Part shown: piece by piece, positions 13,815-29,731 of the stretch
Layout: each line of letters starts with the position of its first letter
How positions within the stretch are numbered: position 1 is the first letter of the stretch
NCBI GenBank assembly: GCA_003162875.1
Contig: PLUT01000108.1
Span: forward strand, 2,215-44,717
Source: Granulicella sp.
Lineage (GTDB): Bacteria > Acidobacteriota > Terriglobia > Terriglobales > Acidobacteriaceae
Reading direction: 5' to 3'
DNA length: 42,503 nt
Translations under genes and position numbers: made by a program
The notes under the pieces: model-generated
Database searches by the model: none
Told to the model about the DNA's origin: nothing
The model's input: the letters and a program-made list of their open reading frames with translations, nothing else

Positions 13815-14612
13815 ATGACGTTCAATGAGCATGGTGGATTCGACGGACTCGATGAGAACATCAGGACCTATTCGGCTGCAGCCAATGGTGACGACCCTGC
13901 GGATGGATATGGCAACAGCCCCTTCGACGATGATGAGGAAGAAGAGGAGGTCGTCGTGGCGATGACCTCGGATGACGACGAGGATCTCGATCAGCTGGAG
14001 GATGAAGTCGACGACCTGCTGCGAAGCGCGTCTCATATTGAGGCGGCAATCATCGTGGCGGCTCCGCCGTCGCCGGCAGCAGGCTATACGCCCGCGGCGA
14101 AGCCTTCGAAGGTTCCCGAGAAGAGCACTGCGCCTCCCGCGCCAAAGAAGGCTGCGAAGAAAGCGTCGCCCGCGAAGAAAGCTCCAGCGAAGAAGGTTCC
14201 TGCGAAGAAAGCAAAGAAGGCCAAGAAGAAGGTAGCGATTAAGGCGGTTGCCAAGAAGGCCGTCAAGAAAGTGGCCAGGAAGGCCGCCAAGAAAGTGGTC
14301 AGGAAGGCCGCCAAGAAAGTGGTCAGGAAGGCCGCCAAGAAGGTGGTCAAGAAGGTTGCCAGGAAGGCGGCCAAGAAAGCTGCCAAGAAAAAGACATTGA
14401 AATCTGCCGCGAAGAAGGCGAGTGCTCGGCGCGGCGGTAAGGCCGCTTTGAAGAAAGCGGTCGGCAAGAAGAGCACTTCAAGAAGCAAAAAACCCAATAC
14501 GAGAGGTACTACCTTGGCAACTAAGAAAGCAGCAAAGAAGGCAGTCAAGAAGGCAGTCAAGAAGGCCCCAGCAAAGAAGGCTGCAAAGAAAGTCGCGAAG
14601 AAGAAGAAGTAG
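13815..14612 (+). CDS. Histone H1-like Lys/Ala repeat protein with acidic N-terminal segment
   Basis: FDDDEEEEEVVV...DDDEDLDQLEDEVDDLL followed by ~150 aa of KKAAKK/VVRKAAKK repeats. Confidence 0.85.
   Translation: MTFNEHGGFDGLDENIRTYSAAANGDDPADGYGNSPFDDDEEEEEVVVAMTSDDDEDLDQLEDEVDDLLRSASHIEAAIIVAAPPSPAAGYTPAAKPSKVPEKSTAPPAPKKAAKKASPAKKAPAKKVPAKKAKKAKKKVAIKAVAKKAVKKVARKAAKKVVRKAAKKVVRKAAKKVVKKVARKAAKKAAKKKTLKSAAKKASARRGGKAALKKAVGKKSTSRSKKPNTRGTTLATKKAAKKAVKKAVKKAPAKKAAKKVAKKKK
14271..14342 (+). repeat. 24-bp coding tandem repeat, three copies (GTGG[C/T]CAGGAAGGCCGCCAAGAA[A/G])
   Basis: Copies at 14271, 14295 and 14319 with 1-2 nt differences; a degenerate fourth follows. Confidence 0.9.
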
Positions 14613-22326: not shown

Positions 22327-22393
22327 GCAGGGATGAGTATAAACAAGTTGCTAGTTGCTAGTTGTCAGTTGAGAAGCAAGGACAAATACCGAG

Positions 22394-22416
22394 ATTCTGA
22401 CCCTTCGGGTCAGAAT
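22394..22416. repeat. Perfect hairpin ATTCTGACCC-TTC-GGGTCAGAAT
   Basis: 10-bp stem, 3-nt loop; homologous to 25006-25028. Confidence 0.9.
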
Positions 22417-22437
22417 GACGAACGATTTGGTTGGGAG

Positions 22438-24976: not shown

Positions 24977-25005
24977 GCGATAAAAAGGGCAAGGCAACTA
25001 CGGAG

Positions 25006-25028
25006 ATTCTGACTCTTCGAGTCAGAAT
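25006..25028. repeat. Perfect hairpin ATTCTGACTC-TTC-GAGTCAGAAT
   Basis: Compensatory C:G to T:A change relative to 22394-22416. Confidence 0.9.
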
Positions 25029-25046
25029 GACGAGCAATGAGGCGGG

Positions 25047-26529: not shown

Positions 26530-28209
26530 ATGGAAATATTGACCTCGGCGGAGATGGGTGCGGCGGACCGGCGGACAGCGGAGGAGTTTGGCGTGCCGCT
26601 GGAGACGCTGATGGAGAACGCGGGCGCTGCCGTGGCGGGGTTCTGCCTGAGACGGTATTCGGCGGCGGAGCGGGTGGTGGTGCTGTGCGGCAAAGGCAAC
26701 AACGGCGGCGACGGGTTGGTGGCGGCGCGGGGGCTGGCGGCCGCGGGCGTTGCGGTTGCGGTTGTGCTGCTGGGCCGCGAGGACGAGGTGAAGGGAGACG
26801 CGGACCACCCCAGCGAGCAAGCTCGCCGGGGACCCCGGGCGGGAGCGCTGCGACGGTTGCGCGCGGAGGCTCCGGAGGTTTTGCTGCGGGTGGTCGTCGA
26901 TGAGGCTGGGCTGGCAGCCGCGAAGCAGGCTATGGATTCTGCGGACCTGCTGATCGATGCGGTGTTGGGAACGGGATTCAAGCCGCCGTTGCCACCCCAG
27001 CGAGCGGAAGCTCGCCGGGGGCCCGGTCTGCGCGGGCTGGCGGTGGCGCTGCGCGAGCTGGTGGCGCAGACGAGTGCACCGGTGGTGGCGGTCGATCTGC
27101 CGAGCGGGTGGGACGCGGACTCGATGGCACAGACGGCGGAGGGAGCGTATCGCGCGGATGCGGTGGTAACGTTTACGCGGCCGAAGATGGCGCACGTGTT
27201 TGGCAACTTGACGGCAGGGCCGGTGGTGGTGGCGGAGATTGGGTCGCCGGCGGAGGCGGTGACTTCGGCGAGCGGGCTGCGCTGGGCAGGGGCGTCGAAG
27301 GCAATTGCCGAGCGGCCGCGGGATGTGAACTCGAACAAGGGAATGTACGGGCACGTGCTGGTGGTAGGCGGAAGCTATGGGACTTCGGGTGCGCCGGCGA
27401 TGACGAGCGTGGCGGCGCTGCGGGCAGGCGCGGGGCTAGTGACGGCGGCGGTGCCGAGGAGCATTGTGGACGCGGTCGCGGGAGTTGCGCCCGAGTTGAT
27501 GATGGCGGCGCTCGAGCAGGGGCGAGAGGGCGCGATATTGCTGCAGAACCTGGCGAGCGGCGGCCTGGAGAGGCTGATGCAGGAAAAGCACATCAGCGTG
27601 GCGGCGCTGGGGCCGGGACTTTCGACACGGGGCGAGGCGAGCGAGTTTGCGCGGGAGTTTGTGGCGAGGGTGAAGCTGCCGATGGTGGTGGATGCAGATG
27701 CGTTGAATGCGTTCGCAGGGCGCGCTGCGGAATTGAATGGCGAGGGGCGAGTGCTGGTGCTGACGCCGCATCCGGGAGAGATGGCGCGGCTGGCGGGGAT
27801 GACCGTGAAGGAGGTTGAGGCGGACCGGGTGGGGCTGGCGCGGAAGTTTGCGACCGAGCACCAGGTGACGCTGGTGCTGAAGGGATGGCGGACACTGGTG
27901 GCGCATCCGGATGGGCAAATCGCGGTGAATACGAGCGGGAACCCGGCGATGGCGAAGGGCGGGAGCGGGGACATCCTGACCGGGATTGTGGCTGCGATGC
28001 TGGCTCAGTTTCCGGATGATGTGGCGCGGGCGGTGGAGGCGGCGGTTTATCTGCATGGGCTGGCGGGGGATTTTGCGGCGCAGGCAATGGACGAGCATAC
28101 GGTGCTGGCGACGGATACGGTGATGCATTTGTCGGACGCGTTTCGCTACCGGGTGAAGGATGCGGGTGGAATGACGTGGATTTGTGGGTTGAACGAGACA
28201 AAGGCATAA
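26530..28209 (+). CDS. nnr: Bifunctional NAD(P)H-hydrate repair enzyme (epimerase/dehydratase), with two in-frame palindromic insertions
   Basis: CGKGNNGGDGLVAARGL; APVVAVDLPSGWDAD; KGMYGHVLVVGGSYGTSGAPAM; LTPHPGEMARL; NTSGNPAMAKGGSGDILTGI. Confidence 0.92.
   Translation: MEILTSAEMGAADRRTAEEFGVPLETLMENAGAAVAGFCLRRYSAAERVVVLCGKGNNGGDGLVAARGLAAAGVAVAVVLLGREDEVKGDADHPSEQARRGPRAGALRRLRAEAPEVLLRVVVDEAGLAAAKQAMDSADLLIDAVLGTGFKPPLPPQRAEARRGPGLRGLAVALRELVAQTSAPVVAVDLPSGWDADSMAQTAEGAYRADAVVTFTRPKMAHVFGNLTAGPVVVAEIGSPAEAVTSASGLRWAGASKAIAERPRDVNSNKGMYGHVLVVGGSYGTSGAPAMTSVAALRAGAGLVTAAVPRSIVDAVAGVAPELMMAALEQGREGAILLQNLASGGLERLMQEKHISVAALGPGLSTRGEASEFAREFVARVKLPMVVDADALNAFAGRAAELNGEGRVLVLTPHPGEMARLAGMTVKEVEADRVGLARKFATEHQVTLVLKGWRTLVAHPDGQIAVNTSGNPAMAKGGSGDILTGIVAAMLAQFPDDVARAVEAAVYLHGLAGDFAAQAMDEHTVLATDTVMHLSDAFRYRVKDAGGMTWICGLNETKA
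26806..26839. repeat. In-CDS palindromic element copy 1
   Basis: CACCCCAGCGAGC-AA-GCTCGCCGGGGACCCCGGG; inside nnr, encoding HPSEQARRGPR. Confidence 0.85.
26993..27026. repeat. In-CDS palindromic element copy 2
   Basis: CACCCCAGCGAGC-GGAA-GCTCGCCGGGGGCCCGG; inside nnr, encoding PPQRAEARRGPG. Confidence 0.85.
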
Positions 28210-28778: not shown

Positions 28779-28816
28779 GGTCCTTCGACTCCGCTGCGCT
28801 CCGCTCAGGATGACAA
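28779..28816. repeat. Dispersed repeat GGTCCTTCGACTCCGCTGCGCTCCGCTCAGGATGACAA
   Basis: Homologous to 24943-24976. Confidence 0.8.
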
Positions 28817-28852
28817 ATATTTTGGGAGTCGAGATCGTCCATCACCCACGGA

Positions 28853-29731
28853 TTATGCGGCGGGGGTGAAGATGAGGCTTTTGGCGCGGCCGGTATAGCG
28901 GTAGATGGCGCACTCTTCGTCGCCGGTGGAACCGTATTCGCGCTGGCGGGCGATGGCATCCAGGTCGGCGGCGTGGTCCTCCGGGGACATCTTGACGTTG
29001 TCGAGGAAGAGCTGGACGAAGGCCGGGTTGCGATCGAGGACGCTGGCGCATTCCGCGTTGACGTAGATGAGGTCTAATGCGGGCTCGCGGGCCTGCACCC
29101 CAGCGAGCAAAGACCGCTCGCCGGGGGCCCGGGATTTGGGGCGGGCGGCGAACTGGGTCTCGATGCGGCGCAGGAGTTGGCGGAGGACGGGCGCTTCGAA
29201 CGGGTGGAACAGGAAAAGGAGTGTGGGCGTGGCGGGGAGATCGAAGTCGAGCGCGTCGCCCTCGACGATCTGGATGGGTGCGAGGCGCGGTGAGGTTGGG
29301 TCTTCGGCGTGGGATGCGGTCCAGTGGGCGACGTTCTGACGAGCGATGGCGGCGAGCGAGGGGTTGAGTTCGATACCGACGACTTTGCGGAAGCGGAATT
29401 CGCTGGCGACGAGCAGGCCTCGGCCTTTGCCGGCGCCGACGTCGATGAAGGTGTAGCTGGAGATGGGGTGGGGCGGGATGGTCTCGCGCCAGTGGCCGAT
29501 GAGCGCGCGCAGGATGGAGGGCGCGACACCATAGTAGGCGGTGACGTGCTCGTCGTTGGCGTGACCGGTGATGAGGTGCCTGGCGGGGACCAGGCCGCTG
29601 GTGTCGACGCCGTGCGCCTGGTCGAAGGGATGGATCGGGAAGTCGGTGAGTTGGAGCCGGTCGCGCGGGCGGGTGGGCGCCGCGACGAGACTAGGTTTTT
29701 GCGCGATGGTCTTTGATCTGGACGAGGGCAT
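28853..29731 (-). CDS. SAM-dependent methyltransferase, class I
   Basis: SSYTFIDVGAGKGRGLLVASEFRFRKVVGIELNPSLAAIARQN. Confidence 0.85.
   Translation of the reverse strand: MPSSRSKTIAQKPSLVAAPTRPRDRLQLTDFPIHPFDQAHGVDTSGLVPARHLITGHANDEHVTAYYGVAPSILRALIGHWRETIPPHPISSYTFIDVGAGKGRGLLVASEFRFRKVVGIELNPSLAAIARQNVAHWTASHAEDPTSPRLAPIQIVEGDALDFDLPATPTLLFLFHPFEAPVLRQLLRRIETQFAARPKSRAPGERSLLAGVQAREPALDLIYVNAECASVLDRNPAFVQLFLDNVKMSPEDHAADLDAIARQREYGSTGDEECAIYRYTGRAKSLIFTPAA
29096..29133. repeat. In-CDS palindromic element copy 3
   Basis: CACCCCAGCGAGC-AAAGACC-GCTCGCCGGGGGCCCGGG; inside the methyltransferase, antisense to copies 1-2 relative to coding direction. Confidence 0.85.

Follow-up and report, generated by a model that had tools for sequence, protein, structure and literature searches.

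A palindrome inside a methyltransferase gene as a probable copy of a dispersed mobile hairpin in an Acidobacteriaceae genome

Introduction

How does a palindrome come to lie within the reading frame of a methyltransferase gene, and is it the hairpin or the encoded peptide that is kept there? The question arises from a 42,503-nucleotide stretch of DNA (hereafter the window), which is part of contig C260 of a Granulicella-like (Acidobacteriaceae) metagenome-assembled genome (4.84 Mb, 394 contigs, 85% complete). A first-pass annotation of the window, made from the sequence alone, described the palindrome as one of three copies with invariant arms and proposed that the element is tolerated as coding sequence in both orientations, its structure rather than its peptide being conserved. 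Here, we followed these claims through the genome, through homologous genes and across the Acidobacteriota. In our reading, the palindrome very probably belongs to a REP/MITE-like family of non-autonomous mobile hairpins, 33-39 bp long, that has multiplied in this Acidobacteriaceae genome and whose in-frame copies survive selection.

Results

The palindrome reads CACCCCAGCGAGC-AAAGACC-GCTCGCCGGGGGCCCGGG and is translated in the minus-strand open reading frame as KSRAPGERSLLAGV, so that location, loop length and translation are as first annotated (Table 1). The R1 match to this element spans positions 29095-29132 (58.6 bits). The pattern GCGAGC-N{2,12}-GCTCGC occurs at three sites in the window, with loops of 2, 4 and 7 nt, as compared to 0.33 expected in shuffles, and three sites were reached by 1 of 100 shuffled windows. 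Together with genome-wide counts of the pattern against its reversed version (see below), these shuffles rule out a chance palindrome.

Table 1. Position of the palindromes, their host genes and neighbouring features (window coordinates, except where a locus is named)
Feature	Position	Strand	Description
Class I SAM-dependent methyltransferase-like host gene	28853-29731	-	292 codons
In-frame insertion that includes the element	29081-29134	-	18 codons, 54 bp, from homologue alignment; ends uncertain by a few codons
Element in the methyltransferase gene	29096-29133	+	CACCCC box, inner stem GCGAGC/GCTCGC, 7-nt loop, GGGGGCCCGGG box
Bifunctional NAD(P)H-hydrate epimerase/dehydratase gene, host of the two other copies	26530-28209	+	YjeF_N and Carb_kinase
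Second copy	26805-26837	+	2-nt loop; in-frame reading DHPSEQARRGPR; insertion about 26803-26838, 36 bp
Third copy	26992-27026	+	4-nt loop; in-frame reading LPPQRAEARRGPG; insertion about 26989-27027, 39 bp
Common acidobacterial intergenic repeat	28779-28820		GGTCCTTCGACTCCGCTGCGCTCCGCTCAGGATGACAAATA; just downstream of the methyltransferase gene
Other hairpin repeat, two copies	22383-22426 and 24995-25038		GATTCTGAC...GTCAGAATGACGA
Lysine/alanine-rich ORF	13815-14612		Degenerate KK-containing tandem repeats; histone H1-like tail
Acido-Lenti-1 RNA (RF01687)	L017, 1766-1810	-	Near a copy-bearing dnaE; sole Rfam match in ten loci

Pfam support for the methyltransferase is weak (Methyltransf_25, 21.3 bits, under the cut-off of 27), and its named relatives come from metagenome genomes of Granulicella and other Acidobacteriaceae. 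Nevertheless, the comparison with 19 homologues was clear-cut: all 19 lack the 18-residue insertion, the alignment passing from residue 199 to residue 218 with nothing in between and with no other gaps in the flanking residues. The peptide is thus absent from, rather than conserved in, homologues without the palindrome, and the site is empty in each of them. Likewise, the NAD(P)H-hydrate repair gene carries insertions of 12 and 13 residues at its two palindromes, and both sites were empty in 9/9 orthologous genomes. The three window insertions (54, 36 and 39 bp) are each a multiple of three and free of stop codons. As to where the methyltransferase insert may lie in the protein, the predicted structure is poor (mean pLDDT 50.7); residues 196-218 join a helix and a strand in it, by which a tolerant loop is only suggested.

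The window contains further repeats. The palindrome sits, elsewhere in the genome, inside repeats of the same kind as the intergenic copy just downstream of the methyltransferase gene, and the other hairpin repeat, present twice in the window, is a host repeat in its empty state, of which versions with the palindrome inside lie elsewhere (C3, C392).

In the whole genome, the pattern with fixed inner arms returned 36 matches, against nine for the reversed pattern. A covariance model was built from 28 of the 36; five others (L009, L012, L018, L027 and one in L041) were chance matches in which the outer boxes are missing, and the alignment also omitted L014 and L042 (both with Ns) as well as one copy at a contig end. 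Searching the genome with this model yielded at least 93 copies at E<=0.1 and at least 88 at E<=0.01, both being lower bounds, with 150 of 5668 candidates scored. The further copies that the first-pass annotation had left to a genome-wide search therefore exist in their dozens. They are dispersed, several of them are identical across 38 bp, and inside genes they occur in both orientations; in a bin as fragmented as this one, the context of some copies is incomplete. When only the outer boxes were specified, with 13-30 free bases between them, 62 sites matched, as compared to one for the reversed pattern.

These copies define a unit of 33-39 bp with the consensus Y-C-A-CCCC-A-[6-nt arm]-[2-9 nt]-[arm']-C-GGGG-ACCCC-G. 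Among copies, the outer boxes (YCACCCC ... GGGGACCCCG) hardly change, while the inner stem varies yet remains paired. Invariance of the arms, as first annotated, consequently holds among the three window copies but not genome-wide, where the inner arm takes other forms (GCCAGC, GCGAAC, GCGATC, GCGACG and others). No curated Rfam family matched the element, either in ten element loci or in the window, and a known RNA family was accordingly dismissed.

The outer-box search made no demand on the stem, which frees a test of pairing on these copies from that bias. Its 62 matches, less two overlapping shorter or degenerate readings and three with Ns, left 57 copies, 41 of them distinct. All 41 keep at least five of the six inner pairs and 30 keep all six, whereas shuffling the right arms gave perfect stems in 12.3 copies on average and in 19 at most (2000 shuffles, which ignore the relatedness of copies). 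Where the left arm is changed (22 copies), 14 are perfectly paired, as opposed to two if the right arm were consensus. Copies from other genomes, taken once per genome (n = 29), show 14 versions of the left arm, and 21 of them have a perfect stem, against a mean of 6.1 and a maximum of 13 in 2000 shuffles; these copies were found with the covariance model and hence carry its bias, and relatedness was again ignored. That structure rather than peptide is conserved, as first proposed, is borne out by this covariation and by peptides that differ with the reading frame (see below).

At the junction of outer and inner stem, an A faces a C in 25 of the 29 copies from other genomes and in 26 of the 41 own copies. 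Read on the other strand, the two bases pair as G-T, which leaves the stem unbroken. Folded as RNA, the window copy reaches -24.3 kcal/mol on the G-T strand and -20.2 kcal/mol on the other. The 38-nt element alone folds exceptionally on both its strands (RNA z -2.2 and -2.6), and the local 71-nt DNA fold is unexceptional (z -0.45). Because its stem is continuous via the G-T pair and it folds better, we infer that the G-T strand is the one recognised.

How commonly, then, does the hairpin lie within a protein gene? We located 27 copies in 20 genes supported by homology, i.e. by Pfam matches spanning or flanking the element or by orthologs: dnaE, polA (2), mnmG (2), mnmE, lhr, hemN-like (2), ftsQ, tilS, molybdopterin oxidoreductase, PMT-type transferase (2), queA, agmatine deiminase (2), GFO/IDH oxidoreductase, purD, rlmN (2), aroB, serine dehydratase, M20 peptidase (E 0.049, a weak match to the model), the hydrate-repair gene (2) and the methyltransferase. 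From 51 rows of element-spanning ORFs, 30 ORFs were compared with Pfam, and 25 of the 30 had a match. In 17 of the 20 genes, Pfam matches extend across the element or lie beside it; the other three are aroB, supported by its ortholog, and the two host genes of the window. (Calling coding status from codon usage, which had sorted 93 copies into 15 coding in the same frame, 44 non-coding, 33 mixed and one with differing frames, was too crude and has been superseded by homology.)

Eighteen of the 27 copies lie on the same strand as their gene (10, 6 and 2 in the three frames) and nine on the opposite strand (5, 4 and 0), in line with the proposed tolerance of the element as coding sequence in both orientations. 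Five of the six reading frames are thus used, which argues that the hairpin, and not a peptide, is kept. Insert peptides predicted for MnmE, MnmG, DnaE or alanine racemase include HPSEQRPLAGDP and GERSLLAGV. That most of the 27 copies are in frame is partly by construction, given that open ORFs were chosen; the ortholog comparison alone is free of this selection. In 0.8 Mb of a same-genus genome, ten copies had homologous sequence on both sides, eight in genes and two intergenic; 8/8 in-gene copies were in frame, and no frame-shifted copy was found among the ten compared.

MnmG is a widely conserved tRNA-modification enzyme. Relative to PDB 2zxh, the protein at L129 has a 71-residue insertion spanning two copies plus other repeats, and QueA has about 38 extra residues around its copy as compared to a solved structure. 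Since the element is embedded in other acidobacterial repeats, several insertions exceed its length.

Beyond this genome, the element showed a patchy distribution. It was present in 35 of 100 Acidobacteriaceae genomes (E<=1e-4), 34 besides our own, and in 12 of 119 genomes sampled across the phylum (E<=1e-5), eight of the 12 being Acidobacteriaceae; E-values from the covariance model are rough. Copies per genome outside our own ranged from 1 to 39. With the same filters, two same-genus genomes had 2 and 10 copies versus 63 in our own, which points to recent multiplication in the latter. Besides, among ten element-spanning ORFs examined with Pfam in a more complete assembly (G064; 10 contigs, 99% complete), copies lay inside alanine racemase and a P-type ATPase.

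Discussion

The mobile hairpin that we favour would have reached the methyltransferase gene in the following way. Insertions would land in coding and non-coding DNA alike, with selection removing those that shift the frame or break the fold, so that the survivors would be multiples of three bases in tolerant loops. Survival within genes may be helped by the near-absence of stop codons in any frame of the element. The hairpin itself would be conserved because it is recognised by a putative mobilising machinery, probably on the strand reading CGGGGT-CCCC...GGGGTG, whose stem is continuous through the conserved G-T pair. The 18 inserted residues of the methyltransferase would then be translated as neutral decoration, devoid of a function of their own.

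Three readings would make the insert something other than an inserted, translated hairpin. The first, a segment conserved in the methyltransferase whose palindrome arose by an accident of codons, is refuted by its presence in 0/19 homologues and by identical DNA in unrelated genes elsewhere, and we give it practically no credence. The RNA of the insert might also remain untranslated, being skipped by ribosomes or removed as are the byp elements of yeast mitochondria, and a short, stable hairpin amid essential genes would suit such a scheme; yet skipping would not require that the three window insertions be stop-free multiples of three, and we regard this as highly improbable. An artefact of metagenome assembly or binning might be suspected from the 394 contigs, from several copies near contig ends and from the Ns in some of them. 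However, the element is present in 34 other family genomes and, also inside genes, in the 10-contig assembly G064, so that no flaw of a single metagenome bin explains the phenomenon; the odds of such an artefact appear very slim. A separate concern regards the covariation, which template switching, by perfecting palindromes, could produce without selection, although such a process should have erased the A-C mismatch that is kept at the stem junction.

More difficult to judge is how the hairpin moves. It may be an ordinary REP with nothing unusual but its tag, its spread being due to a RAYT (REP-associated tyrosine transposase, Y1_Tnp/PF01797) encoded by the host. Y1_Tnp genes are at hand (nine in our genome, and present in 80 of 100 family genomes), the combination of tag, hairpin and conserved G-T pair is REP-like in its anatomy, and in element-bearing genomes 4 of 20 Y1_Tnp loci have an R1 match (E<=0.01) within about 1 kb, which exceeds what copy density alone would suggest (20 Y1_Tnp loci in genomes without matches have zero copies, necessarily). 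On the other hand, the tag at the hairpin foot is neither GTAG/GTGG nor CGTC, one genome (G035) holds 39 copies yet no Y1_Tnp at E<=1e-6, and among the eight Y1_Tnp loci read in our genome there is one with a strong copy, at a distance of about 0.9 kb. In another genome (G050), the nearby copy sits in a hairpin repeat of another kind, and an empty version of that repeat is present about 230 bp off; for this reason the copy looks inserted rather than like the transposase's own flank. Some copies also have short flanking direct repeats, which to our knowledge are not expected of the RAYT/Y1 enzyme class. We consider a RAYT-driven spread possible but rather doubtful.

These same repeats would fit a miniature element mobilised in trans, its transposase or integrase making a staggered cut by which about 5-6 bp of target are duplicated. 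Of 87 non-redundant copies, 13 have direct repeats of 5 nt or more at their flanks, as compared to 1.9 expected and a maximum of six in 1000 permutations; tandem copies share a 4-5 nt spacing; and some copies lie within another copy, in its loop or arm (L115 on C155, L039 on C340 and L128 on C28), with short repeated junction bases (GCT/GCTC). Yet 74 of the 87 copies have no flanking direct repeat, a test for target duplications at a fixed offset was weaker (7/57 versus 1.7), and the ends, CCACCCC and GGGGACCCCG, are not symmetric terminal inverted repeats. No longer or autonomous version with separated ends was noticed by eye among 59 right and 50 left boxes of this 85% complete genome, nearly all of the right boxes having a partner or lying at a contig end. 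We regard staggered-cut movement as a tentative option. As for the choice of target, flanking stems of at least 7 bp surround 4 of 51 non-redundant copies (0.7 expected), a minority, and hairpin loops as a general target were therefore rejected.

At its broadest, the favoured mobile hairpin might represent a new superfamily in the Acidobacteriota, with fixed C/G boxes and a freely evolving stem. Its mover would be neither a RAYT nor a classical insertion-sequence transposase, would read the fold of one strand and often land in hairpins, including its own copies, and its hosts would bear extra loops in essential enzymes. We advance this as speculation that is rather unlikely to hold in full. 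The in-gene copies amount to a natural library in which short peptides are inserted into essential enzymes, and the recognition rules of a covarying hairpin could lead to the mobilising enzyme.

In the literature searched for coding palindromes of Acidobacteria, which left most subscription journals outside, we found no prior description of this family. The accessible parts of the reports on Rickettsia palindromic elements describe units of about 105-150 bp that encode a conserved peptide (PMC2229807, PMC10969869). Like these and the Wolbachia palindromic elements, as far as the same parts go, the hairpin lies in frame in conserved protein genes and also between genes, the ORF staying open across the insert (PMC2229807, PMC10969869); unlike the Rickettsia elements, its unit measures 33-39 bp, uses five of six frames and is unrelated in host and sequence. 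Closer in size are the intragenic GTAG- and CGTC-tagged REPs, which, in the part of that paper available, are 20-40 bp palindromes in polA, dnaE and uvrA of several bacteria, single or grouped (Di Nocera et al. 2013, PMC3733652). With 33-39 bp and at least 88 dispersed copies, our family qualifies as a 20-40 bp imperfect palindrome of this sort, but the bases 5' of its hairpin foot are YCA or, on the opposite strand, CGGGGT, its fixed C/G boxes surround a covarying stem, and a transposase gene flanked by it is at most putative. Rules for REP tags and classes of Y1 enzymes, among them a class that contains Acidobacteria and has atypical structures, are set out in the accessible text of one study (PMC6006769), and that of another lists Granulicella aggregans among genomes with predicted REPs but does not give their sequences (PMC12306157). 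MITEs such as Correia, ERIC and RUP are, according to the partial accounts at hand, likewise short, non-autonomous, dispersed and at times fused in frame to genes; the present element differs in being much shorter, in lacking symmetric terminal inverted repeats and in having direct repeats at a minority of copies. Mobile palindromes that persist in essential protein genes have been described for the most part in reduced, intracellular bacteria and in a small number of genomes rich in REPs; those reported here belong to a free-living soil phylum, and a single genome holds tens of them, in both orientations and in five frames.
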